NCBI RefSeq assembly: GCF_001701045.1 | Contig: NZ_CP016757.1 | Location: 2,754,219 to 2,818,218 of the forward strand | Length of the DNA: 64,000 nucleotides | Source: Cloacibacillus porcorum | GTDB taxonomy: Bacteria > Synergistota > Synergistia > Synergistales > Synergistaceae | Reading direction: 5' to 3' | Shown: one piece after another, positions 20,961 to 41,021 of the stretch | Numbering within the stretch: the stretch's first letter is position 1 | How the letters are laid out: the number at the start of each line of letters is the position of its first letter | Position numbers and translations under genes: made by a program | Notes under the pieces: model-generated | Database searches by the model: none | Told to the model about the DNA's origin: nothing | The model's input: the letters and a program-made list of their open reading frames with translations, nothing else

Positions 20961-20978
20961 CTCGTATCTTTAGCATAT

Positions 20979-24471: not shown

Positions 24472-24497
24472 TCTCTCAGCCTCTTATTCATATATTT

Positions 24498-25490
24498 TTA
24501 TAATTTATCACGTATCTCAAGAAATCCCTGGTATATTTCTTCGGGAGTTATAGATAGAATACACGGCGCAGCCGCATCGCCCAATTGGTGCTTATGACAA
24601 TGCCAGCCTCTGCAGATACAACTTTTATCAAATAAAGAAATTACGTGTATATCCTTTATATCCCACGGAAGGAAACGGTTTCGATCTCCTCCTCCCAATA
24701 TACATAGAGCGCGGTTCCCACATAAATATGCCCAATGTGTAAGTCCCGTTTCATTGCCAACAAACAATGGCGTATCTTTTATGATAGAGAAAATTTCAGA
24801 GATACTCGCACCCCGCACTCTAGTTAAATTCGGGTGGCTAAGAGATAAATCATCTTCTCCCACCTGGACGATACGCAGTGCAACAGGAAGCATGTTAAGA
24901 AATTTTTGCCATAGCTCAGTCGGATAACGTCTATATTTTGCCCCCGCATCGGTCATTATCACCAGATCATAGCACCGCTGGAGCTTTGTGTCCCTCAACA
25001 TCTTGGGATATGAAAGAAACAGCTCTTCGTATGAGGGTAATCCGCCAAACAACGAACGGAAGTAGCTATCAACATGCCTGCTTACATGAAGCACTGCATT
25101 ATCCGCTCCTTTAATTCTTTCTATGATTTTAAATCCATAAGAGGCCAAATCGCAGGTTACCATCTCACCTTCATATACAAAAGTAGGCATATTTAGCCTC
25201 TGTGCGGCATCCAGGATTTTTTTATGATTATACGTAATCGGGATATATAAAGCATCACTATCAGAAATATTATATTTCATTTTCAGGTAAATTGAATAAC
25301 AACGGCTATGAGCCAATAGTCCCTGATTAATAACTTCCAGAGAATTAGCAGGGAGGAACATTGATAGAACAGGATATTTGTCTTTAGGAATCAGTATCTT
25401 TAATTCTATGCCGCTCCTATATAAATAGTGGTAGTAAGGCAAACGAATCAGAATATCACCTATTCCGCCTCTATCAAGAAAGTACTTCAC
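24498..25490 (-). CDS. Divergent GT9-like (heptosyltransferase superfamily) protein
   Basis: 330 residues. RGGIGDILIRLPYYHYLYRSG resembles the N-terminal loop of GT9 enzymes, DLVIMTDAGAKYRRYP the central donor strand, and FVGNETGLTHWAYLCGNRALCILGGG the TG-x-x-H donor block. The C-terminal part has paired Cys (CICRGWHCHKHQLGDAAAPC), as in many GT9 proteins. It probably adds a heptose or related sugar to the LPS core. First gene of the AT-rich minus-strand LPS run, with a promoter candidate 150 bases upstream. Confidence 0.78.
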   Translation of the reverse strand: MKYFLDRGGIGDILIRLPYYHYLYRSGIELKILIPKDKYPVLSMFLPANSLEVINQGLLAHSRCYSIYLKMKYNISDSDALYIPITYNHKKILDAAQRLNMPTFVYEGEMVTCDLASYGFKIIERIKGADNAVLHVSRHVDSYFRSLFGGLPSYEELFLSYPKMLRDTKLQRCYDLVIMTDAGAKYRRYPTELWQKFLNMLPVALRIVQVGEDDLSLSHPNLTRVRGASISEIFSIIKDTPLFVGNETGLTHWAYLCGNRALCILGGGDRNRFLPWDIKDIHVISLFDKSCICRGWHCHKHQLGDAAAPCILSITPEEIYQGFLEIRDKL

Positions 25491-26067: not shown

Positions 26068-27237
26068 TTACCTCCCCGCCAAACTCGACAGATCGAATAT
26101 CGGCAGCAGCACGGCAACTACTACGAAGCCGACGAGCACGCCCATCACCAGGATGATCAGCGGTTCCGCGAGGGTCGCCCATTTTTGCATTGAGGACTGG
26201 GCGTATTCCCAGCAGCTGGCGCCCAGGCGCACGGCGGCGTCCGGGAGGTTGCTGCCGCTTTCTCCGACACGGATTATCGTCACGATCTCCTCGGGGAATG
26301 AGCCCTCTTTCTCAAGTGCCTGAGAAAAACGGTAGCCCTGGCGGATATGTTCGGAGACGACTGAGAGGCGTCCTTTGACGGGGTCCAGCGGCTCCGTCAG
26401 TTTGAGAGCCTGCACCAGTGGGATTCCGGCGCGCAGCAGCGTGCCGCTCTGGCTGAAGATCAGCGCGAAGGCCAGGTTGTCGCGGATATCTTTGAACATC
26501 GGCAGGTTGATTTTTTTGTTGCTGCGGCGCATCCAGAACACGACAATCGCCACAACTGCAATAAATGGGAGGAATCCTACGCGGACGGCGTTAGAAACAA
26601 AGATCAGCATCTCGGTTATGAAGGGCAGCTCCGCGCCGGACTCCACGACGAGCGCGGTGAGGCGCGGCACAACAAAGCTGAGAAGGAATACGACGACGCC
26701 AAGGCCGACAATAAGCATCAGTACTGGATAGGTCAGCGAGGACTGTATCTTTCGGCGCAGCGATATTTCGTTCTGGATGAGTTCGCCGGCCTTTTCGAGG
26801 ATTTCGGCGAGAGAGGCGGATCTTTCTCCAGACTCCACCATCCCGACGAGGCTTGGACGGAAGACGCCGAGCGCGGTCATCGAACCGGCGAGCGAACGCC
26901 CTCCCTCCACCGATTCGCGCAGCTGCGTGTATATCGGCTTGAGATTTTTGTCACGCGTCTGCTTTTGCAGCAGGCGCAGCACCTCGGTCATCGAGAGACC
27001 GCTGCGCATAAAGGAAGAGAGCGTGGTACAGAAGAGGTATTGCTCTTCCAGCGTCAGGTTTTTCCTGCGCGACCGTCCCGCAAAGGACCAGGTGCGCGGC
27101 TTTTCCTCTTTCACGCTGATGATCACATATTTTGCCTCGCCAAGTTCGCGAAGCAGATCGTTCTCGCTCGCCGCCTCTTTGCGGAGCTGCTTTTTCTCCC
27201 CCGCCAGAGTGTAGACTTCGGCCTTATAGAGCGGCAT
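26068..27237 (-). CDS. gspF: Type II secretion system inner-membrane platform protein GspF
   Basis: 389 residues of the GspF/PilC family. Two homologous cytosolic helical domains (about 60-165 and 255-360) alternate with three transmembrane helices near 168-190, 215-235 and 362-385. Conserved blocks include LCTTLSSFMRSGLSMTEVLRLL with its repeat FSQSGTLLRAGIPLVQALKL, and YPVLMLIVGLGVVVFLLSFVVP. It couples the GspE ATPase to pseudopilus assembly. It is the last gene of the cluster; the usual next gene, gspG, is not present. Confidence 0.95.
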   Translation of the reverse strand: MPLYKAEVYTLAGEKKQLRKEAASENDLLRELGEAKYVIISVKEEKPRTWSFAGRSRRKNLTLEEQYLFCTTLSSFMRSGLSMTEVLRLLQKQTRDKNLKPIYTQLRESVEGGRSLAGSMTALGVFRPSLVGMVESGERSASLAEILEKAGELIQNEISLRRKIQSSLTYPVLMLIVGLGVVVFLLSFVVPRLTALVVESGAELPFITEMLIFVSNAVRVGFLPFIAVVAIVVFWMRRSNKKINLPMFKDIRDNLAFALIFSQSGTLLRAGIPLVQALKLTEPLDPVKGRLSVVSEHIRQGYRFSQALEKEGSFPEEIVTIIRVGESGSNLPDAAVRLGASCWEYAQSSMQKWATLAEPLIILVMGVLVGFVVVAVLLPIFDLSSLAGR

Positions 27238-27240
27238 TGA

Positions 27241-28737
27241 TTATACCTCGCCGACGACGCGCAGCATCTCTTCGGGCGTCGTCTCTCCCTCGCGGACTGC
27301 CAGCAGGCCAAGCTCCAGCAGGGTAGCGAAGCCGCCGTGGCGCGCGAGGCTCTTGAGTTCGTGCAGCGCCGCACCGCGGGCGATAGCGTCCTGTATCTCC
27401 GGCGTGACGTCGAACTGCTCATAGAGACCGAAGCGCCCGCGGTAACCGCTGCCGTTGCAGTGTTCACAGCCAACGCCGCGCCAGGCCTTTTCGATGCCGT
27501 TTTTTAACACGACGCCGGAGGTCGGGATCTCTTTTTTACAGTGCGGGCAGACCCGGCGCACAAGCCGCTGAGCGACGACACCTAGCAGCGAACCTGAGAT
27601 AAGGTATGGCTCGACGCCCATGTCGGTAAGGCGGGTCACGGCGCTGATGGAGTCGTTGGTGTGGAGCGTCGAAAAGACAAGGTGCCCCGTAAGCGAGGCC
27701 TGGATGCCGATGTGCGCGGTGTCAAAATCGCGCATCTCTCCGATCATGATGATGTCGGGGTCCTGGCGCAGTATAGAACGCAGGGTGTTCGCAAAGGTGA
27801 GTCCCGCCTTTTCGTTCACCTGCACCTGCCCCACGCCCGGAAGATCATATTCTATCGGGTCTTCGACGGTGATGATGTTCACCTGCGGCCGCGCGAGCGC
27901 CTGCAGGATGGCGTAGAGGCTCGTGCTCTTGCCGGAGCCGGTGGGGCCGGTGAAGAGGATCATGCCGTTGGGGCGGCGGATGAGGTTCTCTATCCGCTCC
28001 CGTTCGTAGGCCTTCATGCCGAGGTCCTCAAGCGTCAGCAGGCCGCGCGCCTTGTCGAGGAGCCTGAGCACCAGACGCTCTCCATGCTGTGTCGGCAATG
28101 AGCTGACGCGTATATCGACAAGGCGGTCCCCAAGGCTGATGCCGATGCGGCCGTCCTGCGGCACGAAACGTTCTGCGATATCCATGTTGGCCATGACTTT
28201 GATACGGCTCGTCACGGGCGACTGATGTCCTTTGGAGAGGGCGTAGCGGTCGGATAGGACGCCGTCGACGCGGTAACGCACGGCGACGCGGTCCTCGTAG
28301 GGTTCGATGTGGATATCCGTCGCGCGTTCGCGCAGGGACTCCATGAGGATGCCGTTGACAAGCTTGACGACCGGCGCGTCTACGCTGTCGCTCATGACCT
28401 CCTGGCGCGCGAGTTCGGAGAGGTCGTCGACCTCTTCGATGGCGTTCAGCGTCTCCTGCCCGACGCCGCTCTTGATGTCGTAGAGGCCGCGGATGAGGTT
28501 CTGTATCTCCGCGGGCGGGAATAGTATGGTATCGGCGCTGGCGTCCATCGAGGCCGCGAGCAGCTGCGTCTCCACTACGCATGATAGGTCGGCCGCCGCA
28601 AAGGTGACGACCTTTTCGTCGCGCACGATGGGTATGAAGCACTTGTCACGCAGAGCGTCAAGGCTCACCCCCGGAGGGATGAGCTCAAGCACGCTTTCCG
28701 GCGTTATGTTCAGATCTTTTAAGGAACGCTCCGTCAT
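27241..28737 (-). CDS. gspE: Type II secretion ATPase GspE
   Basis: 498 residues. An N-terminal GspE/MshEN domain (about 10-90), a linker, and the secretion ATPase core. Walker A is GPTGSGKST at 264-272, the Asp box IEPYEDRVAVRYRVDG is at about 144-159, Walker B is IIMIGEMRDFDTA and the His box follows (ASLTGHLVFSTLHTND). The tetracysteine zinc site CPHCKK ... CEHCNGSG is present, marking the T2SS/T4P extension type. It powers pseudopilus extension at the inner membrane. Three bases separate it from gspF and four from gspD. Confidence 0.96.
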   Translation of the reverse strand: MTERSLKDLNITPESVLELIPPGVSLDALRDKCFIPIVRDEKVVTFAAADLSCVVETQLLAASMDASADTILFPPAEIQNLIRGLYDIKSGVGQETLNAIEEVDDLSELARQEVMSDSVDAPVVKLVNGILMESLRERATDIHIEPYEDRVAVRYRVDGVLSDRYALSKGHQSPVTSRIKVMANMDIAERFVPQDGRIGISLGDRLVDIRVSSLPTQHGERLVLRLLDKARGLLTLEDLGMKAYERERIENLIRRPNGMILFTGPTGSGKSTSLYAILQALARPQVNIITVEDPIEYDLPGVGQVQVNEKAGLTFANTLRSILRQDPDIIMIGEMRDFDTAHIGIQASLTGHLVFSTLHTNDSISAVTRLTDMGVEPYLISGSLLGVVAQRLVRRVCPHCKKEIPTSGVVLKNGIEKAWRGVGCEHCNGSGYRGRFGLYEQFDVTPEIQDAIARGAALHELKSLARHGGFATLLELGLLAVREGETTPEEMLRVVGEV

Positions 28738-28741: not shown

Positions 28742-30787
28742 TTATTTGCCGCCGTTCGGGGCCTTTTGCTGCGGCTTCACGTCGTCTGAGCCCACCATTC
28801 CGGAGAACTGTCCGTGGGGATCAAGCATCTCTCTTGAAACTCCCTGCTGTTTGATCGACTTGCGGTAGTCCTCGTTGTTGCGCTGCATCAGGATGCGTTC
28901 CGCTTCGCTGAGCTTCTGTCCGTCAGTGATGATCTCGTTGGTGATCTTCGAGGCGTGCTGCGGCGTCTCAAGTATATAGGGCGTGAGGAAGATCATCAGG
29001 TCAACCTTTTCGCGCTGCTTCTCCTGAGATTTGAAGAGATTGCCGATCAGAGGGATGTATGAGAAGAGCGGCACACGGTTCTTCAGCTCCTTCTCCGCCT
29101 CTTTGATGAGACCGCCAATGACGACCGTTTCGCCGTTCGCGACGAGTACGCTGGTCTTGACCTCGCGCTTGGAGGTTATCGGCGTGACGGAGTTCGTCGT
29201 CGTCATCAGGTCTTCGATGCGCTGTTCGATCTCCAGCGCGACGAGGTTACCGCTTCTGATGTGCGGCGTCACCGTGAGGATGAGGCCGACGTCCTTGTAT
29301 TCGTAAGAGTTCGTCACAGAGTCAGTGTTGGCCGCGTTTGTAAGGCTGCCCTTGAGCTGCGGTATGACCTGTCCCACCTGAAGGGAGCTCTCAAGGTTGT
29401 CGGTGCACATGAGGCGCGGCATCGAGAGGACGTTGATCGCGTCGAATTTGTTGAGCAGTTTTATGTAGGCATAGGCAAGACCGGCGCCTTGTGTATTTGT
29501 GAGTGTGTGAGCATTGCCCTTATCATCATATTCCAGTTTTTCATTAGTGATCAGACTCTGGTATAACTGCTGAATGTCGGAGGGAACGGCGGTGTTGCCA
29601 AGCTGCACGTTACCCGCGACGACCGTACTGCCGAAGAGGTCGCCGCCCCAGGCCGCCCAGTCGATGCCGGCGCTGTTGAGCTTGTTGAGGCTGACCTCGG
29701 CGATAAGGCCGCGCAGCAACACCTGTTTCGGCTGTGTGTCAAGCTGTTCGAGGATTGTCTTAAGCGAGTTATACTGTTCCTGCGAAGCGGTAAATACAAG
29801 GCTGTTGGTCGGCAGGTCGGGGACGACCGTCGATGGCATCGCCCCTTTGGGGTCCGGCGAGAGCTTCGCGGCGACGGCGAGTATCTGGGAAAGCTGCTCG
29901 GCGACCGTCTTCGCGTCGGCGTTTTTCAGGCGATATACGTGGAAGTTCTCGGTGCGCGAGGGGACGTCGATATCCTTGATGATACGCTCCGCCTCACGGA
30001 TGTTCTGGCTGCTGCCGACGAGGATTATCCTCTTAGTGCGCTCGTCGGAGACCGATACCATCCCCGCCAGCTTTGAGGAGGCGTCCTTCGCGATCGCGTT
30101 GAGCTGCGCCTCCAGCAGCTTCGCGTTCGCGTATTGCAGCGCGCAGACCTTGATCGTGCGAATGCTGTCGGGGGCGTCGATCGCGCGGATGACCCCGGCG
30201 GCGCGGGAGAGCAGGGCGGCCTTGCCTACCAGCAAAACGGCGCTGCCGTTGCCGATCGGGGAGACCTGTATCTGCGGGATCGCCGTCTTGAGCGGCGAGA
30301 CGACGTAACCGGCCTTCACATAGCTCAGAGGCACCAGCTGCACCATTATCGTGTCGCTCGGGTCAACGCTTTGGTCCCCCTTGATGACGGTGTTGCTCGC
30401 GGTTCCGCCGGTGGAGAGGGGCACAACTTTGGAGTATCCCTCCATGTCCTGCAGAGAGAGGTTGTTCATTTCGAGCACCGACAGCATCACCTGCCGCGCC
30501 TCTTTGAGGGTGACGGCCTTCGGTGAGACCACCGAAACCTTGCCTGAGACCCCCGGGTTCACAAGAATATTTTCCCCAAGGAGCTCCGACATAAAGCGGA
30601 TGAATTTCGCCATATCGAGGTCTTTGAAGTTCAGCTGTACGCGGCCCGCGGCGCGCATCTCCTGCGCCGCCTGGATCAGGTTCAGCTCTTCTTGGTCGGG
30701 CTCCGCCGCCGACAGGGTGCAGGCCGAGAGAGATACGGCAGCCGCTGCGAATAATGTATAAAGCAATCTTTTCTTACCGTGCATCAT
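28742..30787 (-). CDS. gspD: Type II secretion outer-membrane secretin GspD
   Basis: 681 residues. The N0 domain (VQLNFKDLDMAKFIRFMSELLGENILV) is followed by three N1-N3-type repeats (IRTIKVCALQYANAKLLEAQL; FHVYRLKNADAKTVAEQL) and the secretin barrel with VGQVIPQLKGS and VPLFSYIPLIGNLFKSQ. The signal peptide ends in SLSAC, a lipobox (L-S-A-C), so the protein may be lipidated at Cys22 and insert without a separate pilotin. It forms the gate through which folded proteins leave. The first ATG has AGGAG at six bases. The C-terminal tail is Gln/Pro/Gly rich. Confidence 0.95.
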   Translation of the reverse strand: MMHGKKRLLYTLFAAAAVSLSACTLSAAEPDQEELNLIQAAQEMRAAGRVQLNFKDLDMAKFIRFMSELLGENILVNPGVSGKVSVVSPKAVTLKEARQVMLSVLEMNNLSLQDMEGYSKVVPLSTGGTASNTVIKGDQSVDPSDTIMVQLVPLSYVKAGYVVSPLKTAIPQIQVSPIGNGSAVLLVGKAALLSRAAGVIRAIDAPDSIRTIKVCALQYANAKLLEAQLNAIAKDASSKLAGMVSVSDERTKRIILVGSSQNIREAERIIKDIDVPSRTENFHVYRLKNADAKTVAEQLSQILAVAAKLSPDPKGAMPSTVVPDLPTNSLVFTASQEQYNSLKTILEQLDTQPKQVLLRGLIAEVSLNKLNSAGIDWAAWGGDLFGSTVVAGNVQLGNTAVPSDIQQLYQSLITNEKLEYDDKGNAHTLTNTQGAGLAYAYIKLLNKFDAINVLSMPRLMCTDNLESSLQVGQVIPQLKGSLTNAANTDSVTNSYEYKDVGLILTVTPHIRSGNLVALEIEQRIEDLMTTTNSVTPITSKREVKTSVLVANGETVVIGGLIKEAEKELKNRVPLFSYIPLIGNLFKSQEKQREKVDLMIFLTPYILETPQHASKITNEIITDGQKLSEAERILMQRNNEDYRKSIKQQGVSREMLDPHGQFSGMVGSDDVKPQQKAPNGGK

Positions 30788-30843: not shown

Positions 30844-31311
30844 CTATTGCTGTTGTTTATCGCCGCGGCTTCCGCTCTTTATAATATCCGTCGACGACGC
30901 CGCTGCCGCCTCTTCCTCTGCATCCTCTTTCGAAGGGATGTACAGTATTATCTTTTTATTTTTCTTATCGGCGACGGTGATCTCGCGCCACTTCACCTTT
31001 AGGGCTTCTCCGCTGTCGTCGGAGCCTGCCTTGTCGAAGTCGAGCCGCCCGAATTTCTCGCCGAACATCTCCGTCTCCTTGTCCTTCGTCTCCCACTTGA
31101 AGTCCCCGCTCGTTCCCGCGTCGGAGAGCTCCTTTGTCGAGATCCCCGCCTCCACCGCCTGCGCGGCATTCAAGAGGCTCTCCTTCTCCTTTACGGCGGA
31201 GAGGGTATTTTGCGCCATTATCGTAAGTTTTATCGCCGCCGTCGTCGTCAGCGCGAGGACCATGACGGCGACCATTACCTCTATAAGGGTAAAACCTCTC
31301 CTTCCCAGCAC
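30844..31311 (-). CDS. gspI: Minor pseudopilin, GspI-like
   Basis: 155 residues. A short leader and prepilin site (GRRG/FTLIEV, with Glu5 of the mature protein) is followed by a hydrophobic helix (MVAVMVLALTTTAAIKL). The A-I-K-L stretch and mature length fit GspI best, but the globular domain is poorly conserved and the Ser/Lys/Gln tail is unusual. It would be cut by a prepilin peptidase not encoded in this window and form part of the pseudopilus tip with GspJ and GspK. It lies between gspC and gspD. Confidence 0.75.
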   Translation of the reverse strand: MLGRRGFTLIEVMVAVMVLALTTTAAIKLTIMAQNTLSAVKEKESLLNAAQAVEAGISTKELSDAGTSGDFKWETKDKETEMFGEKFGRLDFDKAGSDDSGEALKVKWREITVADKKNKKIILYIPSKEDAEEEAAAASSTDIIKSGSRGDKQQQ

Positions 31312-31317: not shown

Positions 31318-32310
31318 TTATTTCACCTGGTACTTAAGCTCAAGGGGTTTTCCCTTGCGCTGTACGGTAACGTCGAAGCGCGTCCCCGCCATCAGCGAGT
31401 TCACGGCGTTAGCGGCATCAGCCATATTAGAAATGGTGACGCCGTTGACCGCCTGTATAACATCCCCCTGTGCGACGCCGACACGGGCGAAGACGCTGTC
31501 AGGCGCGATACGCTCAAGCTGCATGCCGGAACCGTCATCTGCCGGCACCATCCGCAGCTTGCCGAGTTCGTCGTAAGGGTTCATCAGCAGCGCGTCGACA
31601 AGCTCGCGCGGCACAGCCCCCTCTTTTCCCTCCGATGCCGGTTCGACGCCGGAAAAATCAAGCTTCGGCGAGGTTGGCTTCGGCGTCCTCGGAGAAGCCG
31701 GCGGAGGCGTCTGAGCCCTGGGTGCGGTCCCTCCCGAGAGGAATAGGTATAGGGTATGCTCGCTCTTACCGTCGGTAAGGAGCACCTCTCCGTATTTTAT
31801 CTTTTCCAACGTATAGCCGTTTACAGTCTGTCCCTTCAGGAACAGCTTCGTTCCCTCGGGATCGCTTATCCAGGCTCCGATGTTAGGCAACGTTCCCTGA
31901 AGAGAGAGGGAGTCAAGCGCCACCGTGCGACCCGTCGTCGCTTTATCCTCTTTCACCGGCAGATCGGCCTTGAAGGGGTTCGCTGCGGTGAAGTCTCCCA
32001 GCCCACCGCTGCCCTTCGCGTTCGCAAAGGAGGGCGCGCGGCCGCTGACCCTTGAGGCGGCGGCGATATCGGCGTCAAGGCGCAGAGAGAGCAGCACTCC
32101 CTTTACCATCCAGCACAGACAGAGCCCCGCGAATAGTCCGCAGACAAACAACGCCGGCGTCAGCATACGCGAGCCGCCTCTCTTCCCGGCCTTTTCTCCG
32201 CCGGTAAAGGAGGAGCGGAGACCGCCGTAAAGTTTTACTACCTGTTCGTAGGAGCCGTCGTATTTAAGACGGTCCGTTATCTTGTTTTTTATGGAGGCGA
32301 TAAGGCTCAT
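31318..32310 (-). CDS. gspC: Type II secretion inner-membrane protein GspC with PDZ domain
   Basis: 330 residues. One transmembrane helix (about 49-72, ALFVCGLFAGLCLCWMVKG), then a periplasmic HR domain (LDSLSLQGTLPNIGAWISDP ... LFLKGQTVNGYTLEKIKYGEVLL), a Pro-rich linker and a C-terminal PDZ domain (ARVGVAQGDVIQAVNGVTIS). This is the GspC layout that links GspD with the inner platform. Start ATG 32310 overlaps the gspN stop as ATGA and has GGAGG at eight bases. An upstream ATG at 32325 is less likely. Confidence 0.9.
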   Translation of the reverse strand: MSLIASIKNKITDRLKYDGSYEQVVKLYGGLRSSFTGGEKAGKRGGSRMLTPALFVCGLFAGLCLCWMVKGVLLSLRLDADIAAASRVSGRAPSFANAKGSGGLGDFTAANPFKADLPVKEDKATTGRTVALDSLSLQGTLPNIGAWISDPEGTKLFLKGQTVNGYTLEKIKYGEVLLTDGKSEHTLYLFLSGGTAPRAQTPPPASPRTPKPTSPKLDFSGVEPASEGKEGAVPRELVDALLMNPYDELGKLRMVPADDGSGMQLERIAPDSVFARVGVAQGDVIQAVNGVTISNMADAANAVNSLMAGTRFDVTVQRKGKPLELKYQVK

Positions 32311-32900
32311 CTCTCGATCCTCCACTCCCCGCTCTTGACCTTGGTCAGCGGAACCATTCCCATCTTACCGGCCATTTCAAGGGCCCGGTCAAGTTCCGCA
32401 GGCACCTTGAGCAGCATCTTCGCGCGCGTCAGCTTCCCCGTCTCACGCGAAAGCTCGGCAAAGCCAGTAACGGAAGTTTTGCCGGTAAAGGCGATATTCT
32501 CTATCATCAAAGACTGCGGTGTGAGCGAGATATCCGCCGTGCCGCCGTTCCACTCTAGAGCCTGCCGCGTCACCGGCACAAGGCTGCCGCGTCCCATCTC
32601 TAGCCGGCAGCTCTTAGTCTGCGAAAAAAGCGAGGAGATTATTGAGGGCGTGAGGGTCACCTCTCCGGCGCTGAACCTGAACACAGGAAAGTCGGCGTTC
32701 ACGCCGTTGTATATAAAGCTCTTTGAAAATAGCCCCGATACGCCGGATGAGGCAACTGTAAGAAAAATTCCGTTTTCCGCCGCGGCGCTCATAGCCATCG
32801 AGGCCGAGGTTCCCGCGAGGGACGACCAGGGGAAGAATACCAGTAATCCGCAGAACAGCCCCGCGATGACCGCCGCGGCGCCGCGTAAGGTTTTTTTCAT
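32307..32900 (-). CDS. gspN: Type II secretion protein GspN-like
   Basis: 197 residues with one N-terminal transmembrane helix (about 8-28; AAAVIAGLFCGLLVFFPW) and a periplasmic beta-rich body. The repeated amphipathic strands and the phrase ENIAFTGKTSVTGFAELS resemble the AsmA-like fold of GspN. Position between gspM and gspC supports the call; GspN is variable and often missing in other T2SS. It overlaps gspM by 4 bases and gspC by 4 bases. Confidence 0.7.
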   Translation of the reverse strand: MKKTLRGAAAVIAGLFCGLLVFFPWSSLAGTSASMAMSAAAENGIFLTVASSGVSGLFSKSFIYNGVNADFPVFRFSAGEVTLTPSIISSLFSQTKSCRLEMGRGSLVPVTRQALEWNGGTADISLTPQSLMIENIAFTGKTSVTGFAELSRETGKLTRAKMLLKVPAELDRALEMAGKMGMVPLTKVKSGEWRIER

Positions 32901-33367
32901 TGATCTTCACCCACTATCGTCAGCGTTACGTTGATCAGCCGGCCGTCTTTCTGTCCCGTCAGCGAACGAAGCTCCGCCGTCTTCACCGAGAGACCGTTTC
33001 GCTGAATATCCTCAACAAGCTTGCCCAGCTCCTCGTGATAGAGCCTATTGACCTGCAGCACAAGTCCCGACGGAGAAGACGACAGCTGATTGACCTTGCT
33101 CTGGAGCCCCAGCTTGTCGATTATCTCCGATACCGCCGAAAGCGGTTCTTTACCGGATACGGCGCCCTGCTGCGGGTAAGATTTTACCGTTATCGCCGCG
33201 TTGAGGATCTTCTCCGCGTCGCCAAGCCGGTCTTCGTTTTCGCTCATGGCGGAGAGCGCGGCGGAAAAGGCAAGCAGCGCGGCGAGCCAGATCATCACCG
33301 TGATCAGCGCCGCCCTTTGCAGACGTTTCGCCCCCGGCATCGCGCGCAGCTCTTCAAGAGATAACAT
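32897..33367 (-). CDS. gspM: Type II secretion protein GspM-like
   Basis: 156 residues. A cytosolic N-terminus, one transmembrane helix (about 20-40; LITVMIWLAALLAFSAALSA) and a small periplasmic ferredoxin-like domain ending in LINVTLTIVGED. The SAVSEIIDKLGL ... VNRLYHEELGKLVEDIQRNGL pattern is typical of GspM/PilO proteins. It partners GspL. The call rests on topology and gene order, as these proteins diverge quickly. Confidence 0.78.
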   Translation of the reverse strand: MLSLEELRAMPGAKRLQRAALITVMIWLAALLAFSAALSAMSENEDRLGDAEKILNAAITVKSYPQQGAVSGKEPLSAVSEIIDKLGLQSKVNQLSSSPSGLVLQVNRLYHEELGKLVEDIQRNGLSVKTAELRSLTGQKDGRLINVTLTIVGEDQ

Positions 33368-33369: not shown

Positions 33370-34563
33370 TCAGCGTCCCCCTTCCGCAAGATTCAGCGTA
33401 AAGCGCATACCGCCGCCCGGTATCTGCTGTACGTCGCCAAGCTTGACGGTAAAGCCGTTCTTCGCAAGCGCGTCGCGCAGCAGCTGAATATGATCGGTTT
33501 TGGAGGCCTGGCCCTCAATCTCCGTACGTTCGCGTCCGTAACGTATCGCGTCGACCTTGATATCCGTCCCCGCCGGCAGCGTCTTCCAGGCCGCGGCGAA
33601 GTTCGCGAGCGTTCCCTCCAGTGTGAGCTGGACGCCGCCGCCCGTCAGAAGGCGCAGCCTCTTGGTGATATCCGCGAGAGGGCTGCGGCTAACCTCTCCT
33701 GTGGTAAGCCTGTATACCTCGGAGGGCGCCGCGGCAAAGGATTCAGACATGTATTTATTTTGTACAAGTATAAAAAGCGAAAGGATCAAAAACATCAGCC
33801 CCGCCGCCGAGGCGATCTTCACCGCTCGAAAGGCTGAATTGAAAAAGGCCTCGTACTGTTCGGCCATCGAGGCTCCGCGGTTGGAGAGGTCGAGCCGAGC
33901 AAGTCCCGGCGCGGCGGCAAAGGTCGCCGCTGCGGCACGCCGCAGCTCCTCGCGCGAAACATCCTCCGCGCAAAATATGCGTACGTTCTCCGCCGGTATC
34001 TCCCCGCCGGTCGAAGAGACATAGCTGCGCATCCACTGCGCGAGCTCCTCCGCGCCGCCAGAGGCGTATCTGTAAAGCTGCGGCGTATATTCCTTAAACC
34101 ACACTGCGCAGGAAGAATCTCCCTCCTGCCAAACAATGAGGCCATCGCCGCCTATCTCGGCGGCAAAGGCTGCCGGAGCGGGCAGAAAGATACTTTTATT
34201 GCCCAGCCGCTCCTCATACTCCGATATCTCTTCCCTCGAGACGAACCAGGCCGCGCCGCGCGTGAGATTCGCACGCTGCTCGGCGACCTGCGGGACCAAA
34301 GAGAGCCTGGACTCCTGTTCGCCGAGGATCGGCCTAAATGTAAGGGTTATCGCGCTCCTTAAATTGACCTTACGACCAAAGGGAAAGGAGAAGGGAAATA
34401 CCGTGGCAGTACGAAAAGGAATAAAGTAAGCTTCCGTCTCGCCGGCCAGCGGCAACTCCCCCCTCTCGCAGGAGAGGTGGTAAAATTTTATCTTATTCGG
34501 AGCCCTCGCCGGCTTAGCCGCAAAGGAAATTTTTTCCATTAACCTATGACCCTTTATCAGCAC
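33370..34563 (-). CDS. gspL: Type II secretion protein GspL-like
   Basis: 397 residues. The N-terminal half is an actin-like cytosolic domain (GspL/PilM type; residues about 20-240) that binds GspE. One transmembrane helix follows (about 250-275; AAGLMFLILSLFILVQNKYM), then a periplasmic ferredoxin-like domain (LLRDALAKNGFTVKLGDVQQIPGGGMRFTL). The GTG at 34563 has GAGAGGAA upstream and is preferred. ATG 34539 (MEKISF) is a possible alternative. Gene order K-L-M supports the call. Confidence 0.8.
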   Translation of the reverse strand: MLIKGHRLMEKISFAAKPARAPNKIKFYHLSCERGELPLAGETEAYFIPFRTATVFPFSFPFGRKVNLRSAITLTFRPILGEQESRLSLVPQVAEQRANLTRGAAWFVSREEISEYEERLGNKSIFLPAPAAFAAEIGGDGLIVWQEGDSSCAVWFKEYTPQLYRYASGGAEELAQWMRSYVSSTGGEIPAENVRIFCAEDVSREELRRAAAATFAAAPGLARLDLSNRGASMAEQYEAFFNSAFRAVKIASAAGLMFLILSLFILVQNKYMSESFAAAPSEVYRLTTGEVSRSPLADITKRLRLLTGGGVQLTLEGTLANFAAAWKTLPAGTDIKVDAIRYGRERTEIEGQASKTDHIQLLRDALAKNGFTVKLGDVQQIPGGGMRFTLNLAEGGR

Positions 34564-34617: not shown

Positions 34618-35529
34618 CTACTCTTCCCAGCTGAATATTTTGCATTTTTTACCGCTGCGCTCTACTATCACCCGATAATTTCTTGTATTGCCAACTTTGT
34701 CTTTAACATTCATCTCAAGCAGAAAATGCGTGCTTTCAAAACCAATGACATTCGCCAGCTTCGTCGCCACCGCCGCGGGAAATCCCGGCAGGCGTTTCAG
34801 ATCTTCCATACTCGTGAGCGGTGAGATAAGCCGCTGCGCCGCGATATCCTGAGCGTGTGCGAGGGAGAGTCCGTCGTCTAGTTTCTCGATCACCTCAGGC
34901 GCGGCGACGTTTATATTTATCTTCTGGCCTCCGGGAACGGTAAGATACCTCGCCAGTCCGCCAGGATGCTCATTGTCGCCCCACAGCACCTTGTCATTGA
35001 TCTCCGGCATCGCCTTAAACTCGTTAAGATCCGAGACAAGCCGGTTGATATTGCCGTCACGCTCCGCCCCGCCAAGCTTCTGGTTTTTATCCTTATCAAT
35101 AAAGTCAAGCACCGGCGCCGCGAGCTCCGCGTGCTCTAATTCCTCCCAGATCGCGTCCCACGCGGTCTCATATTCCGAACGGAGGGTAACTCCGTCGGGA
35201 AGTAAAAGCCCATTCACAGATATTCTATCATTTAACGGCGTAATTCGAATGGAAATATCATAATCTCCGATCTCAATTTTCGTCCGCTGTCCCGGAGCGT
35301 AGAGCGGCTCGGTGAAACCGTCGTATTTATTGTCGTCGGCGGCGATCTTCCGTCCGATGACTCCCACCGCGATCTCGGCGGCGTTGCGGCATTTAAGTAT
35401 ATTCTCGCGCGTCGACACCCGCCGCGCCTCGGTGCGCGCGAACCAGGCGAAGGCCGTCGCCGAGGTTAGAAGCAGCGTCGTGGAGAGCAGAACGGAGACG
35501 AGGATGAAGCCGCTACTTCTCTGCCGCAT
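34618..35529 (-). CDS. gspK: Minor pseudopilin GspK
   Basis: 303 residues. A prepilin-type N-terminus (RSSGFILVSVLLSTTLLLTSATAFAW) with Phe after the Gly but no Glu at mature position 5, which is characteristic of GspK. The large globular insert and helix-hairpin-helix-like segment (LISPLTSMEDLKRLPGFPAAVATKLA) are typical of T2SSK. It caps the pseudopilus with GspI and GspJ. It overlaps gspJ by 17 bases. Confidence 0.88.
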   Translation of the reverse strand: MRQRSSGFILVSVLLSTTLLLTSATAFAWFARTEARRVSTRENILKCRNAAEIAVGVIGRKIAADDNKYDGFTEPLYAPGQRTKIEIGDYDISIRITPLNDRISVNGLLLPDGVTLRSEYETAWDAIWEELEHAELAAPVLDFIDKDKNQKLGGAERDGNINRLVSDLNEFKAMPEINDKVLWGDNEHPGGLARYLTVPGGQKININVAAPEVIEKLDDGLSLAHAQDIAAQRLISPLTSMEDLKRLPGFPAAVATKLANVIGFESTHFLLEMNVKDKVGNTRNYRVIVERSGKKCKIFSWEE

Positions 35530-36181
35530 TGGGAAACCTCTCAGTGTGCGAATAAGTGCCCTCTTTGGTGATGATCTCGGTCTTCAGAAGATTCGGGAGC
35601 TTTCCGTCATACTCCTGGGCCCATTTGTTCCCCTGCCATACATAGAATTTCACGCCAACCGCGTCGGCAAGCATAAGCTTCGCCACTTTAGGGTCGAGCT
35701 CGTCGGTGTTGACATCCATCGGCGACTCCGGCTCCGAGGCGGAGCGTCCGGAGATATCCCCCGATACGGTGGACTTTGATGGAACGTTGGCAAGCACCCA
35801 GCGGTAGAGTCCGGGCTTCGCGTTATTGAGGACACCCTTCGTCACGATCTTATAGACCACGACGCCGACATTTTTACCCTCGTACTTGGGAGCGGCGCTC
35901 CACATCACTAGACGGTCGTCGGCCTCGGTCGAAAAACCGCTCTTATGGATGATCTTAAAGGTTGAAAAAGAGGGGTTGGGAATGACGCGGCGGATATCGG
36001 AATATATCCTGTCCACCGCGGCGGCGGTGTTGTGAGAGCTACCCCACCGCCGCTGCGCCTCTTCCAGCGAACGAATCGTAAATACAAGCGGGGCGAGGGC
36101 GGCGGCGGCTATAATGCCGACCAGCCCCACTACGAGCATTATTTCGATGAGAGTAAATCCCGGGCTGACGCCGCGCCTCAT
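35513..36181 (-). CDS. gspJ: Minor pseudopilin GspJ-like
   Basis: 222 residues from ATG 36181. A short leader, prepilin site SPG/FTLIEIM with Glu5, a hydrophobic helix (LVVGLVGIIAAAALAPLVF) and a beta-rich domain. The early block AAAVDRIYSDIRRVIPNP fits GspJ. The ATG is one base past the stop of the membrane ligase gene and has no good ribosome site, so translation probably depends on coupling. An in-frame ATG at 36250 would overlap that gene by 68 bases and is rejected. Confidence 0.78.
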   Translation of the reverse strand: MRRGVSPGFTLIEIMLVVGLVGIIAAAALAPLVFTIRSLEEAQRRWGSSHNTAAAVDRIYSDIRRVIPNPSFSTFKIIHKSGFSTEADDRLVMWSAAPKYEGKNVGVVVYKIVTKGVLNNAKPGLYRWVLANVPSKSTVSGDISGRSASEPESPMDVNTDELDPKVAKLMLADAVGVKFYVWQGNKWAQEYDGKLPNLLKTEIITKEGTYSHTERFPNAAEK

Positions 36182-36182
36182 C

Positions 36183-38018
36183 CTATTTTGAGAGCGGCCC
36201 CGCGTCGCCCGAAACGACTCGGTATTCCGAGGGGTGCAGATACCGCACAAGTTCGGAGAGCAGCGCCTGGTTTCCCGTACGCTGCGCCAGATTTATCAGC
36301 TCAAGCAGCTGCTTTGCCTGCGGCCTGGTCTTAAAGCTCCGATAGAGCTGCTCGATGCCGGCGGCAAGGTCCTCCGGCTTCTTCGTGACGTTTGCCACGG
36401 CAAGCAGATGATAGGCCAGCTGTTCGTTTGCCTCGTCCCTGCCCATCAGGCTATGCCGCGCCTCGTCTATGCGGTAGCGCTGCAGAGAAGCGCTGTTCGT
36501 CAGCGAGGCAGCGCGCAGATACTTATCGGCGCGGCAGCCCGAATAGAGGAAGATCATCCCCATCACGGCGACCGCCGCCATAAAAAACCCAAGAAGCCGA
36601 TAGATGAAGCCGTGGCTGATCTCGCTGAATTTAGCCGAGAGCGGCAGCAGCTGCCGGTTGGCGACCGCAAAGGCCAGCGACAGCCAAATGACATTCTCTA
36701 TCCGGTGGAACGGACGGCTGAATATAGCGTCGAACCAAATCAGATAGACGAAGGCGCAGCCCCACATCGCGGCATAGGAGAGATCCTTTTTCCGCGTCAG
36801 CGCGCGAATAAAGCTCCATATCCACCAGAGAGCCGCCCCCAGCAGGATCAGCGTCCCGAAAAGGCCGAATTCCGCCATCCACTGCAGATACTCGTTGTGG
36901 GCCCAGTAGGTAAACTGCCACTTCATCTCCGGATGGTCTTTGAAGGCATCTCGCTGCCCGTCGAGGTAATGCCACTTATAATGGCCGAGCCCCACGCCCG
37001 CGATTGGATGTTCCTTGACCACATTCCAGCTCGTGAGCCATATCTCGCGGCGCGCGCCGAAGTTGGCGGTGTTCAAAAGCATGTCGGAGGTTTTGTTTAT
37101 CAGCGCATAGGCGCGGCTCCAGCCGAAGTAGCCCATACAGATGTTGACGACGAGCATCACGGCGACCAGCAGCGCGGCAAAGCCGACATTTTTCAGCAGC
37201 TTCCGCGGCTTGCAGTTCCAGATGATGACCGAGAGGATTATCGTCCCCGTCATTAGCGAGAGCATTCCCGCGCGCGTCGTCGAATTCCAGAGCCCCCACG
37301 AGTTGAAGGCCAGCATGACAAGGTTGGCGTACTTCATATTCCGGTATTTTTTCGGCTCGGCTTCGGAGAACTGCGAATATACCATATGGAGGAAGATGCC
37401 GTTCATCGCGGCCATCGCCATCCAGAGGCCGAACATCTCCTGCTGTCCCGTATTGCCGATATAGTTACCCGGCACGTTCATGATGAACCAGAAGGGGCCG
37501 TTCATATCCCGGATCAGCAGCTCGGCGAAGACGATGTTCACCGCCGCGTTGAGATTCGCGCACCAGAGCAGACAGCGCAGCGCCTTTTCTCCGGTAAAGA
37601 GGTTGTAACAGAAAATATAGGCGGCGAGCAGCGTCGCGAAGAAAAACCACTCCTTCATATAGGTGGAAAGGGCAAAGATATCGGCCCACAGAGGCTGCAG
37701 CGAGACAAAGGCCAGCAGCGAAAACCATACGCCGCCGAAGATATCAAGGCGGAAGCCGGTACGCTCCGCGCCGTAGAGGGCGAGAATGGCGCCGCCGATC
37801 AGCGATATCAGCGCGACAGGCACCATCGCCCAGGCCCATTTCATTATATGGAGCGTATCGAACCAGCTCACACCCGAGAATATCAGGTTCGGCAGCGCAA
37901 GCGAGACGAAAATCAGCGGATAAAATATCCACCGCGGCACCAACGATACGGGGCCGCCGTCAAGCAGTCCCCACGAGAATTTACTCTCCGTAGTTCTCTT
38001 CTTATTCGATGTTTTCAC
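36183..38018 (-). CDS. O-antigen-ligase-like membrane protein heading the type II secretion operon (possible protein O-glycosyltransferase)
   Basis: 611 residues with about 11 transmembrane helices (about 30-455). The large periplasmic loop has GVGLGHYKWHYLDGQ and WAHNEYLQWMAEFG, the His-containing block shared by WaaL, Wzy and PglL/PilO oligosaccharyltransferases (PF04932). A helical, TPR-like region of about 110 residues follows (490-611). It is separate from the LPS cluster and sits in the T2SS operon, one base from gspJ. In known systems the PglL/PilO members glycosylate pilins. That role here is inference; ligase or polymerase activity on a lipid-linked glycan is possible. GTG start with AAGGTGA upstream. 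Confidence 0.78.
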   Translation of the reverse strand: MKTSNKKRTTESKFSWGLLDGGPVSLVPRWIFYPLIFVSLALPNLIFSGVSWFDTLHIMKWAWAMVPVALISLIGGAILALYGAERTGFRLDIFGGVWFSLLAFVSLQPLWADIFALSTYMKEWFFFATLLAAYIFCYNLFTGEKALRCLLWCANLNAAVNIVFAELLIRDMNGPFWFIMNVPGNYIGNTGQQEMFGLWMAMAAMNGIFLHMVYSQFSEAEPKKYRNMKYANLVMLAFNSWGLWNSTTRAGMLSLMTGTIILSVIIWNCKPRKLLKNVGFAALLVAVMLVVNICMGYFGWSRAYALINKTSDMLLNTANFGARREIWLTSWNVVKEHPIAGVGLGHYKWHYLDGQRDAFKDHPEMKWQFTYWAHNEYLQWMAEFGLFGTLILLGAALWWIWSFIRALTRKKDLSYAAMWGCAFVYLIWFDAIFSRPFHRIENVIWLSLAFAVANRQLLPLSAKFSEISHGFIYRLLGFFMAAVAVMGMIFLYSGCRADKYLRAASLTNSASLQRYRIDEARHSLMGRDEANEQLAYHLLAVANVTKKPEDLAAGIEQLYRSFKTRPQAKQLLELINLAQRTGNQALLSELVRYLHPSEYRVVSGDAGPLSK

Positions 38019-38063: not shown

Positions 38064-39416
38064 TTAATATCCGCTGCTGTAGCCGTTTTCGAACCGCGCG
38101 AATTCGCGGAAGAATACCAGATCGACCTTTCCGGTGGGACCGTTGCGGTTCTTCGCAACTATTACCTCCGCCGTCGCGTCGTTCGTATCGTTCTCCTGTG
38201 CGTAATAGGCCTCGCGGTAGAGAAAGATGACCATGTCGGCGTCCTGCTCTATCGCGCCGCTTTCGCGCAGGTCGGAGAGCTGCGGCTTCTTCTTGTCGCG
38301 CTTTTCAACGTCGCGCGAAAGCTGCGAAAGCGCGAGCACCGGCACCTTGAATTCGCGCGCGATACTCTTCAGCGTGCGCGAGATCTCCGAGACCTCCTGG
38401 GTACGGTTCTCAATCCGCCGCGCCGCGTGCATCAGCTGGAGGTAGTCTACGACGATGAGGCCGCGTCCCTCGCCGTATTTCGCAAAGAAACGGCGGCAGC
38501 GCCCGCGCAGCTCCATCGTGTTCAGCGGCGAGCTGTCGTCGATAAAGACTGGGCTCTTCTCGATCGCCGCCGCGGCGTCTTTCAGCCGCTTCCACTGTTC
38601 GTTCTGCTGGCGTTTAGTCTCGAAGAGAGCCCTGAGATTGACCTTCGCCTCCGAGGAGAGCATTCGCTGCACTATCTGCTCCGCCGACATTTCAAGGCTG
38701 AAAATAAGGACGGGAATATTCTCCTGCATCGCCGCGTACTGCGCGATGTTTATCGCGAAGGCCGTCTTTCCCATCGATGGACGCGCCGCCAGTATATAAA
38801 GCCCGCCCGGCTGCAGGCCGGCGGACATGCTGTCAAAATCTTTGAATCCGGAGGGAACGCCCGTGACGGCCAGCCCTCCGGCGAGACGTTTTTCAATATC
38901 GGCCATCGCCGAGACCAGCACTTCGCGCGTGGAGCGTATGTTGGTGGTCTTCCCCGTGCGCGCGATCTCGAATACCCGCTGCTCCGCGGTCTCAAGCGCG
39001 TCGTCCACCTCGATGTCCTCGCTGAAGCCTAGACGCGAGATATCGCTGCCGACGACGATGAGCGAACGGTGTATCGACTTGTCGCGCACGATGCCGATAT
39101 GATATTCGATATTGGCCGTCGTCGTCACCGATTCCATCAGAGAGGCGATAAAGGATATTCCGCCGAGGCGCTCCTCAAGACTCTGCTTTTTTATCTCGTC
39201 GCGAAAGGTGAGAGAGTCGACGGCGACGTTGCGCGAGGCCATCGACTCCATCACCTCAAAGGCCTTGCGGTGGCGCGGGTCGTAAAAATCCTCGGATGAC
39301 AGCCCCTCCATGACGGCGGTCAGCGCCTCCGAGTCAAGAAGACACGAGCCAAGGACAGACCTCTCTGCCTCAAGGTTGAACGGCGGTATTCTGTCTATGG
39401 CGCTGTTGTTCTCCAA
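38064..39416 (-). CDS. dnaB: Replicative DNA helicase DnaB
   Basis: 450 residues. The N-terminal DnaB domain (PPFNLEAERSVLGSCLLDSEAL, about 9-110), a linker, then the RecA-like ATPase with Walker A (ARPSMGKTAFAINIAQ), FSLEMSAEQIVQRML, Walker B (LIVVDYLQLMH) and the C-terminal ESGAIEQDADMVIFLYR. It loads as a hexamer at the fork and binds primase. The start is 3 bases after the rplI stop. rplI-dnaB is a common arrangement. The first T2SS-operon gene starts 45 bases downstream on the same strand. Confidence 0.97.
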   Translation of the reverse strand: MENNSAIDRIPPFNLEAERSVLGSCLLDSEALTAVMEGLSSEDFYDPRHRKAFEVMESMASRNVAVDSLTFRDEIKKQSLEERLGGISFIASLMESVTTTANIEYHIGIVRDKSIHRSLIVVGSDISRLGFSEDIEVDDALETAEQRVFEIARTGKTTNIRSTREVLVSAMADIEKRLAGGLAVTGVPSGFKDFDSMSAGLQPGGLYILAARPSMGKTAFAINIAQYAAMQENIPVLIFSLEMSAEQIVQRMLSSEAKVNLRALFETKRQQNEQWKRLKDAAAAIEKSPVFIDDSSPLNTMELRGRCRRFFAKYGEGRGLIVVDYLQLMHAARRIENRTQEVSEISRTLKSIAREFKVPVLALSQLSRDVEKRDKKKPQLSDLRESGAIEQDADMVIFLYREAYYAQENDTNDATAEVIVAKNRNGPTGKVDLVFFREFARFENGYSSGY

Positions 39417-39419: not shown

Positions 39420-39866
39420 TTATTCAGTCTCCACCTTAAGCGTCATCTCCGCCTCGATGCCGGGATAGAGCTTTATCCTGAAGGTGTACGAGCCGGCCTG
39501 CTTGATAGACTCGTCAAGCTTGATATCTTTTTTATCGATGTTTACCATGAACTGGGCCGACAGCGCCTCGGCGACCTGCGCTGAGGTGACGCTGCCAAAG
39601 AGCTTTCCGCCCTCTCCCGCGCTGACCTTTACGGAGACAAGCTTACCGCCAAGTTTTTTCTTCGTATCCTCCGCGGCCTTCTGACGCTTGTCGTCGCGCG
39701 CCTTCTGCGTCTTCTGGAACTCCTGATACTCGCGCATCCTTCCCGGCGTAGCCTCCTCGGCGAGCCCGCGCCCGATGAGGAAGTTGCGTCCGTAGCCGTC
39801 GGAGACCTCGATCAGCTCTCCCTTTTTACCGACCTTCGCGACATCCTGCTTTAAAATTACTTTCAT
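39420..39866 (-). CDS. rplI: 50S ribosomal protein L9
   Basis: 148 residues with the L9 layout: the N-terminal RNA-binding domain (KVILKQDVAKVGKKGELIEVSDGYGRNFL, ending in GLAEEAT), a long connecting helix (about 42-76) and the C-terminal domain (GKLFGSVTSAQVAEAL, IKQAGSYTFRIKLYPGIEAEM). The length is usual. Two bases separate it from the DUF2232 gene and three from dnaB. Confidence 0.98.
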   Translation of the reverse strand: MKVILKQDVAKVGKKGELIEVSDGYGRNFLIGRGLAEEATPGRMREYQEFQKTQKARDDKRQKAAEDTKKKLGGKLVSVKVSAGEGGKLFGSVTSAQVAEALSAQFMVNIDKKDIKLDESIKQAGSYTFRIKLYPGIEAEMTLKVETE

Positions 39867-39868
39867 TT

Positions 39869-40822
39869 CTATTTCCTCCTTAATTTAATACGCCTGCGTA
39901 AATCGTACCATATATCAAAGATACCGATCATCGACAGCACATACGAGACCGGGGCGAAAAAGGCGCAGAAGAGCGTCAATATCACCCTGAGCGCCTTGTT
40001 CACCTTGTAGGCGCTCATAAAATACCAGAGCAGCGAGAGACCCTCAACGAGGAATATCCCGCGCAGCACCTCCATGAGGTTCAGCGAAAGCATCCGGTAG
40101 AGGCCGTCGTCGGGAAAGGCCTTGGAGGCCATATCAAGAATGAGCGCCGCGAGCAGCGCCCAGAATATATTCTTAGGAAAACGCCAGTGGACGAAGGGCG
40201 GCAGCGCCGGCAGCTTCACGCCTCCGGCCCGCTTGAAATAGAGCCGCGTCAGCACATAGCCCATCATAGTATCCGCCGCGGCGAAGAGTATCAGCATCGC
40301 GGGCATCATCAGCGAAACGGTCTGCGCCATCGTCTCCACATATTCATTAACGCTCTCCGGCGAGACGGAAACCCCTCCCTGTGAAAGAGCCGCCGAGACG
40401 GAGGCCGCCAATCCCTGCGCCGCCTCCGGCGTCATCATGAAGGGATTGACTCCGGCTGCATAGTGAAATCCCCCCATCATCAGCATCTTCACCGCCAGCG
40501 AGGCAAGCAGCGCGAAGATGACATAGTCCGCACCGCTGCGGATCTTGATCATCAGGATGCCCATCAAAAGGCCGAGCAGCGCAAATTCACAGGTATATAG
40601 AAAGGCCGATACCGGCCCCATAATGACATAGACAAAGAGAGTCCCGAAGACGGCCCCCAACGTGCCCTCGCGCACACCCTGCCGGCAGACGAGGATCATC
40701 AGCGGCACCGGCGCGGCCAAAATTATCAGCGGCGACAGGAAGGCAATCTCAATGCCAGCCATAAACATAAGGACGCTCAGCAATATCCAGAAAAACCATT
40801 CAAAAATAACTTTACCCTTCAC
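39869..40822 (-). CDS. DUF2232/YybS-family polytopic membrane protein
   Basis: 317 residues with about eight transmembrane helices. The opening FEWFFWILLSVLMFMAGIEIAFLSPLIILAAPVPLMIL, the LLGLLMGILMIKIRSG helix and the C-terminal LSLLWYFMSAYKVNKALRVILTL fit DUF2232 (YybS). That family is often found between rpsR and rplI, as here. Start GTG 40822 is chosen because GGAGG lies six bases upstream; the longer frame has none. The function is unknown; an ECF-type substrate-binding role has been suggested by fold for relatives, which is not shown here. Confidence 0.85.
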   Translation of the reverse strand: MKGKVIFEWFFWILLSVLMFMAGIEIAFLSPLIILAAPVPLMILVCRQGVREGTLGAVFGTLFVYVIMGPVSAFLYTCEFALLGLLMGILMIKIRSGADYVIFALLASLAVKMLMMGGFHYAAGVNPFMMTPEAAQGLAASVSAALSQGGVSVSPESVNEYVETMAQTVSLMMPAMLILFAAADTMMGYVLTRLYFKRAGGVKLPALPPFVHWRFPKNIFWALLAALILDMASKAFPDDGLYRMLSLNLMEVLRGIFLVEGLSLLWYFMSAYKVNKALRVILTLFCAFFAPVSYVLSMIGIFDIWYDLRRRIKLRRK

Positions 40823-41021
40823 GTCAGACCTCCGCCAGTTTTTATCAAAAAGAGAGCCGCAGACTCCCACATATTATAACAGCAGTTAAAAGAATTGTAG
40901 GGGCCCGCAGGCGACATCTTCCCGAATATCGCACGATAAACAGCCCTTCCACATCGGCTTCAGCGATGAAAACCATAAGTCTCAAAGACAAACAGTCTTT
41001 TATGATTTACATGATAATAGG

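Follow-up and report, generated by a model that had tools for sequence, protein, structure and literature searches.

A Wzy_C-family glycan ligase candidate encoded between dnaB and a type II secretion operon in Cloacibacillus porcorum and some of its Synergistota relatives

The gene considered here lies in a 64,000-nucleotide stretch of the Cloacibacillus porcorum genome (RefSeq assembly GCF_001701045.1, contig NZ_CP016757.1, positions 2,754,219 to 2,818,218 of the forward strand), which we call the window and number from its first letter. It occupies positions 36183..38018 of the reverse strand, encodes an O-antigen-ligase-like membrane protein of 611 residues that we refer to as LIG, and stands between dnaB and a type II secretion system (T2SS) operon that it meets at gspJ. 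A preliminary description of the locus guessed that LIG belongs to a T2SS-linked protein O-glycosylation system. Here, we compare LIG and its surroundings across 185 Synergistota genomes, and describe a conserved putative glycan ligase that is linked to the T2SS operon in most relatives and also persists in genomes where no T2SS is detected. With homologs in 163 of the 185 genomes, LIG is a real gene and not a chance open reading frame (ORF).

LIG begins with a GTG codon preceded by AAGGTGAT, 45 bases from the end of dnaB, a neighbour that the preliminary description did not mention. At the other end its stop codon TAG (36185-36183) is followed by a single G and then by the gspJ start codon ATG (36181-36179), giving the junction TAGGATG (36179..36185, reverse strand) and exactly the one-base spacing described earlier. 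The claim that gspJ lacks a ribosome site of its own also stands, as no Shine-Dalgarno sequence at a usable spacing before gspJ could be seen by eye. Promoter- and terminator-like sites occur at about chance level, and a search of plasmids did not find LIG.

LIG scores 65.8 bits against the Wzy_C family (PF04932; cut-off 31.7), which is its sole Pfam domain above cut-off and is present in 25 of 25 LIG homologs; no NCBIfam family matched at E 1. The WaaL/Wzy/PglL-type His loop noted in the preliminary description is clearly recognizable: residues 372-388 (WAHNEYLQWMAEFGLFG; 36855..36905, reverse strand) form a putative catalytic loop in which W372, A373, H374, E376, E383, and G385 are invariant in alignments of 25 and of 62 homologs. 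Its residues 374-388 (HNEYLQWMAEFGLFG) match the motif H[NSQ]x9Gxx[GTY]. H374, R249, and R323, which correspond to the catalytic His and Arg that WaaL and PglL both have in the Wzy_C region, occur without exception in the 25 homologs (down to 38% identity) and in the 62, and members of the 25-homolog alignment from T2SS-lacking genomes share the invariant catalytic residues. A further invariant stretch, RPFHRIE (residues 435-441; 36696..36716, reverse strand), lies C-terminal of the Wzy_C domain, with R435, P436, R439, and E441 unchanged in both alignments. Residues 183-199 (PGNYIGNTGQQEMFGLW; 37422..37472, reverse strand) fall at the position of PglL Q178/N180; within them Q192 is invariant in the 25 homologs and nearly so in the 62, and the displayed rows have N or E at position 194. 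Mean column identity over the 62 homologs is 39%.

An AlphaFold2 model of LIG built from 62 sequences has high overall confidence (pLDDT 89.8, pTM 0.91). When residues 25-459 were compared with solved chains using VIA-align, the best match was the O-antigen ligase WaaL (7tpg; Z 16.4, rmsd 4.8 over 355 residues), followed by FtsW/RodA folds at Z 11.4 or less. Foldseek alone gave no LIG match at E 1e-3 or better, and WaaL emerged only with VIA; the oligosaccharyltransferase 9rmk is absent from the VIA rows, which places PglL outside the fold comparison. By hmmsearch, WaaL 7tpg matches at E 9.2e-12 versus E 0.055 for 9rmk, which is named an oligosaccharyltransferase and was recognized as Neisserial by the 93.8% identity of its stretch with N. 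gonorrhoeae DNA. Among the proteins compared, LIG thus appears nearest to WaaL in sequence and predicted fold, and a modelled fold shared with WaaL shows no function. The C-terminal part (residues 494-610) is modelled with high confidence to about residue 600. Among solved chains it matches tetratricopeptide repeat (TPR) proteins with a Z of about 7-8, as common helical repeats can also do, and no Pfam TPR model rises above noise; the TPR-like tail proposed earlier (residues about 494-602; 36213..36539, reverse strand) is therefore upheld by the fold match and not by the Pfam models.

Of the 185 genomes surveyed, 115 are near-complete (completeness of 90% or more, contamination of 5% or less). 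LIG is found in 107 of these 115, and GspL in 131 of the full 185; gspD exceeds its family cut-off in 115 of the 185, and weaker secretin matches, presumably PilQ, are far more widespread. Both LIG and GspL occur in 123 genomes, LIG only in 40, GspL only in eight, and neither in 14 (n = 185), giving a crude odds ratio of 5.4 (Fisher p 6.5e-4) that is uncorrected for kinship. The 40 and the eight exclude a strict rule by which LIG is present if and only if a T2SS is; gaps in the assemblies will explain some of the absences. Adjacency of LIG and gspL was computed among the matches listed, which cover 143 of the 163 LIG genomes. Among these, the two genes lie on the same strand and 1.5-3.1 kb apart in 84 of the 110 genomes with both; they are on different contigs in 26, some of which contig ends may account for, and those we rely on were read directly. 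A further 33 of the genomes with listed matches are without GspL.

Seven of the 40 LIG-only genomes were set aside, for a strong or partial gspD (G003, G033, G074, G148) or a weak LIG (G003, G004, G028, G113), leaving 33 with LIG and no detected T2SS. By an eye count, 22 of these 33 are near-complete. The other 11 are less complete, and some belong to T2SS-bearing genera (G128, G133, G141) where absence may reflect an assembly gap. Two of the eight GspL-only genomes are near-complete (G135 and G136), and in the T2SS operons of both a different gene precedes gspJ. Because LIG is kept in relatives without the secretion system, a general surface-sugar enzyme is likelier than a dedicated secretion part.

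The genes around LIG were followed in two sets of loci. Twenty neighbourhoods were read because LIG does not adjoin gspL in them, and in 16 of these it stands behind a DUF2232-rplI-dnaB block, directly or with one gene between. In the window this block comprises dnaB (38064..39404, listed ORF to 39416; TIGR00665, 521.2 bits) and rplI with the DUF2232 gene (39420..40870), all on the reverse strand. The 16 include T2SS-lacking lineages (g21, f10, g29, g7, f9) and others with the T2SS elsewhere (g5, g28, G009). Genomes such as G170, G172, G030, G032, and G179, in one or two contigs, have no GspL or strong gspD and still carry LIG behind dnaB with at most one gene between. LIG has been relocated in g24 (L043) and g50 (L037-L039); in genus g5 it is directly followed by lipopolysaccharide (LPS)-type genes, with gspL on another contig.

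The second set holds 71 complete LIG genes from named records; of 127 relatives, 80 loci were kept, all under Synergistota names. Among the 71, both neighbours, dnaB and gspJ, are kept at 22 loci, gspJ only at 23, dnaB only at 11, and neither at four, with 11 not fully judged; dnaB or rplI is directly upstream of LIG in 38 of 65 judgeable loci. LPS genes lie within 6 kb downstream of LIG at three of the 71 loci (L053, L054, L056), and also at L044 and L045 of the first set. On a quick tree of 81 ligases, ten of whose rows were labelled by hand, adjacency to gspJ changes at least eight times (51 yes, 24 no) and adjacency to dnaB at least four times (46 yes, 29 no), so that dnaB is the more durable neighbour. 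The ancestral order was likely dnaB-LIG-gspJ, from which the T2SS was then lost or moved away several times. As to co-occurrence with gspJ, which the preliminary description proposed to examine, most relatives are linked and the junction is tight, but the adjacency has changed repeatedly.

LIG shows no decay after T2SS loss. We considered such decay and rejected it, as the median ratio of LIG to DnaB distances is 1.98 in linked genomes (n = 23), 2.14 in T2SS-lacking genomes (n = 20, including L070, whose genome is possibly only 66% complete), and 2.23 where the T2SS is elsewhere. The near-equal rate without a T2SS favours an independent job for LIG.

LIG was compared with WaaL and with the protein O-oligosaccharyltransferase PglL. 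Like LIG, WaaL (7tpg/7tpj; E. coli K-12 waaL) has a Wzy_C domain whose fold covers LIG residues 25-459; the HN loop and GVG stretch of 7tpg align with LIG, and the catalytic His of E. coli WaaL falls in the same column. Unlike LIG, with its about 600 residues and TPR-fold tail, E. coli WaaL has 419 residues and only Wzy_C above the Pfam cut-off, and LIG genes, unlike WaaL genes, lie mostly outside LPS clusters. Neisserial PglL/PglO (9rmk) resembles LIG in length (PglO 604 residues), in having a domain C-terminal of Wzy_C, and in Q178. Beside Wzy_C, N. gonorrhoeae PglO carries the Pfam domains PF15864 (PglL_A) and PF11846 (Wzy_C_2), with 26.2 and 62.9 bits, respectively, when run as a control; at E 10 all 25 LIG proteins searched lack both.

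Residues that distinguish PglL from WaaL are given in PMC3643930 (Q178, N180, G316, G318, H400, E404, P406), and we compared them in a MAFFT alignment of LIG with N. gonorrhoeae PglO, 18 short Wzy_C proteins, and E. coli WaaL. In the Q178 column LIG has Q192, and neither the 18 short proteins nor E. coli WaaL has Q. In the N180, G316, G318, and P406 columns LIG has N or E194, G341, G343, and P436, the short proteins often have the same residues, and the last region is gappy. The H400 and E404 columns differ, with D430 and S434 in the window protein, and with H438 and E441 nearby, where another register is possible. Of the PglL-type residues, only Q178 appears to set LIG apart from the 18 short proteins. 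P436 was considered as a PglL trait and dropped, since six of the 18 short rows have P, including the second Wzy_C protein of the window. These short Synergistota proteins (17 and the window's own) share the Wzy_C type with LIG, and most have an HN-type motif, but they are about 400-510 residues long. In a tree with them, E. coli WaaL, and Neisseria PglO, LIG forms a single clade (99/99) that does not include the short proteins.

Four distant relatives of LIG in f11, of 647-708 residues and 29-33% identical over the matched part, bear unmistakable TPR repeats (L156 6235-8346; L158 6077-8191; L159 6309-8435; L157 5698-7641). The L156 gene lies behind lpxK and a gene resembling that for CMP-Kdo synthetase (by Pfam; Kdo, 3-deoxy-D-manno-oct-2-ulosonic acid); by eye, the genes ahead of L158 and L159 look like the same pair, and L157 lacks this setting. 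Because TPR-bearing relatives adjoin lipid A/Kdo genes, a TPR tail alone does not imply a protein acceptor. A comparable layout has been modelled elsewhere: PMC12800693 describes an AlphaFold model of PglS with a proposed catalytic His and a C-terminal periplasmic domain, in which three Arg residues may guide entry or hold pyrophosphate.

We interpret LIG as a member of the WaaL/PglL superfamily that works as a glycan ligase in the inner membrane, and its fold and residues make transfer of an undecaprenyl pyrophosphate-linked glycan likely. On the periplasmic face it would pick up a completed glycan from undecaprenyl pyrophosphate and pass it en bloc to an acceptor; the conserved arginines would hold the pyrophosphate, and His374 would serve as the base. 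That acceptor would most likely be the LPS core, as for an O-antigen ligase, a proposition that we rate at about even chances; a protein would come second, and is doubtful. The gene appears native to the DUF2232-rplI-dnaB neighbourhood of Synergistales, and in most lineages the T2SS operon directly behind it probably shares its transcript and translation, by which the ligase and the secretion system would be made together. Under this proposal LIG would be no component of the secretion system, being kept without one; a role confined to the T2SS is unlikely, and a side role relevant to it is possible. Taken as a whole, a housekeeping ligase of undecaprenyl pyrophosphate-linked glycans, with LPS as its likelier acceptor and the T2SS probably co-expressed, may be right or wrong with roughly equal probability. 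On the LPS side, Kdo transferase is nearly universal, being found in 166 of the 185 genomes, and LIG is the sole PF04932 protein of some genomes (e.g. G122, G022, G106, G108, G109, G110, G112, G017, G034, G020), several of them near-complete.

Several observations weigh against the housekeeping LPS ligase. The gspJ start lies between -20 and +40 bases of the LIG stop in 45 of 47 loci (from 50 gspJ-adjacent loci, three without a recognizable start, with start codons chosen by a simple rule); so tight a junction is the best argument for more than inheritance. The gspJ junction is also kept at the 23 of 71 loci without the dnaB neighbour, all of them in one clade, and together these two points suggest that the tie to secretion may be under selection. 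The LIG/DnaB ratio is about 10% higher where LIG is unlinked or the T2SS is lacking, with a small p from non-independent rows uncorrected for kinship. PglL and LIG have Q178, their size, and a C-terminal domain in common, and the deep fork of the Wzy_C tree is weak (43/71, with long-branch warnings); both a firm WaaL and a firm PglL assignment were rejected on this account. The second Wzy_C protein of the genome, inside the LPS cluster, could be its O-antigen ligase. Finally, adjacency to LPS genes may be as incidental as that to the T2SS, because one locus (L049, genus g7) has neither cluster behind LIG.

These points can be read in several ways. LIG might be a general PglL-type O-oligosaccharyltransferase with several periplasmic targets, possibly pseudopilins and secretion chaperones, that tunes the T2SS. 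The setting beside pilin-like genes fits, since 21 of 31 PglL genes adjoin pilin-like genes according to PMC3643930, a parallel to pilin glycosyltransferases that the preliminary description also drew, and the genome has another Wzy_C protein in its LPS cluster. In Vibrio cholerae, PglL and RbmD status affects T2SS output according to PMC6901666, so that there too a transferase of Wzy_C type has ties to type II secretion; in that species the connection is a general glycosylation system that includes DegP, whereas for LIG it is gene order. The missing PglL domains, the unmatched H400 and E404, a sequence closer to WaaL than to PglL, and a deep TPR-bearing relative beside lipid A/Kdo genes all speak against such an enzyme, and together leave it a tentative possibility. 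A variant that we consider rather unlikely makes LIG a protein O-oligosaccharyltransferase that belongs to none of the known PglL families. It would glycosylate minor pseudopilins or periplasmic secretion factors during their synthesis, would have been translationally coupled to gspJ since early Synergistales, and in T2SS-lacking lineages would have been retained to modify type IV pilins or other proteins.

Glycosylation dedicated to the T2SS, acting only on pseudopilins or T2SS cargo, draws on the linked genomes, the overlapping or tight junction, the co-occurrence, and the slight rise in LIG/DnaB ratio where the link is gone. It is nevertheless very improbable given the 33 genomes from several families that retain LIG without a detected T2SS, two genomes (G135, G136) with T2SS operons and no LIG, and the repeated changes in adjacency. 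Of the original proposal, then, a real, old, and tight link to the T2SS with PglL-like Q, size, and tail survives, and the dedicated system is disfavoured. One finding named in advance as fatal to it, firm grouping with either WaaL or Wzy together with loss of the T2SS link in relatives, is not what the data give, since placement is not firm and most relatives keep the link. A Wzy-type polymerase lengthening a surface glycan on undecaprenyl pyrophosphate belongs to the same superfamily, fits with LIG being the only PF04932 protein of several near-complete genomes, and to our knowledge is not separated from ligases by the Pfam Wzy_C model. Serotype-specific Wzy polymerases are strongly variable in sequence, whereas LIG is uniform across the phylum, and its best solved match is a ligase; a polymerase is improbable.

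A literature search of titles and abstracts returned nothing on the LIG/gspJ pair in Synergistota. A glycan ligase tied to a T2SS operon across much of a phylum, through a junction close enough to allow coupled expression, would connect surface glycans with secretion in a clean and testable way, in bacteria for which genetics is scarce. Because the same enzyme occurs without a T2SS and a deep relative adjoins lipid A genes, the LIG family is also a natural comparison for the evolution of WaaL-like and PglL-like acceptors.

The T2SS operon downstream of LIG, all on the reverse strand, is genuine, as shown by its matches to Synergistota NCBIfam models for GspL, GspM, GspN, and GspC, its GspD, and two pilin-like proteins. 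The gspJ-like minor pseudopilin gene (35513..36181) is recognized from its prepilin N-terminal motif only and its position between LIG and gspK. It is followed by gspK (34618..35529; PF03934 32.5 bits, over the Pfam cut-off, and NF037980 71.7 bits, below the cut-off of 130), gspL (33370..34563; NF041617, 544.6 bits), gspM (32897..33367; NF041618, 207.7 bits), gspN (32307..32900; NF041619, 243.4 bits), gspC (31318..32325; NF041616, 378 bits), and a pilin-like gene in the gspH/I position (30844..31311; PF07963, 28.2 bits). The secretin gene gspD (28742..30787; TIGR02517, 398.8 bits) exceeds its cut-off, and gspE (27241..28737; TIGR02533, 573.5 bits) and gspF (26068..27237; TIGR02120, 227.3 bits) fall below theirs (630.25 and 424, respectively). 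The operon (26068-38018) showed no gspG; the genome's sole gspG above cut-off (190.5 bits; G000:C1:3232083-3232487) is about 414 kb beyond the window.

LIG was said to be far from the LPS cluster, which does not hold. An LPS-type cluster (14820..25490, reverse strand) begins about 0.58 kb past gspF on the same strand and 10.7 kb past the LIG stop, with only T2SS genes between. It comprises an ORF without a Pfam hit, a Wzy_C protein, two GT4 and one GT9 glycosyltransferase genes, a HldE-like gene, and a GmhA/GmhB-like fusion, with two forward-strand ORFs inside. The Wzy_C gene (23164..24471, reverse strand; PF04932, 67.2 bits) encodes 435 residues with no tail, and with LIG makes the two PF04932 places of the genome. 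The T2SS and LPS clusters seem to have been inserted into, or lost from, a single site in an otherwise conserved gene order. At loci of g7 (L049), g28, and g29 (L040-L042, L046), neither cluster separates LIG from relatives of the window genes at 12329-12700 and 11503-12336; in g28 and g29 that interval holds one gene, on the opposite strand.

Smaller variations recur around the same genes. A ParB-like gene (by eye) lies between dnaB and LIG at L041, L042, L046, and L048, and a different gene is found there at L031-L033 (g21). Genus g6 (L131, L132) has a gspJ-to-gspF operon without LIG, and an ORF of 173-180 residues precedes its gspJ. LIG and gspJ overlap by 11 bases in the majority of one clade, whose genomes are mainly from the rumen. 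In many genomes of family f6, the GspL profile match spans exactly one stop codon, of varying kind, and possibly extends past the gene end.

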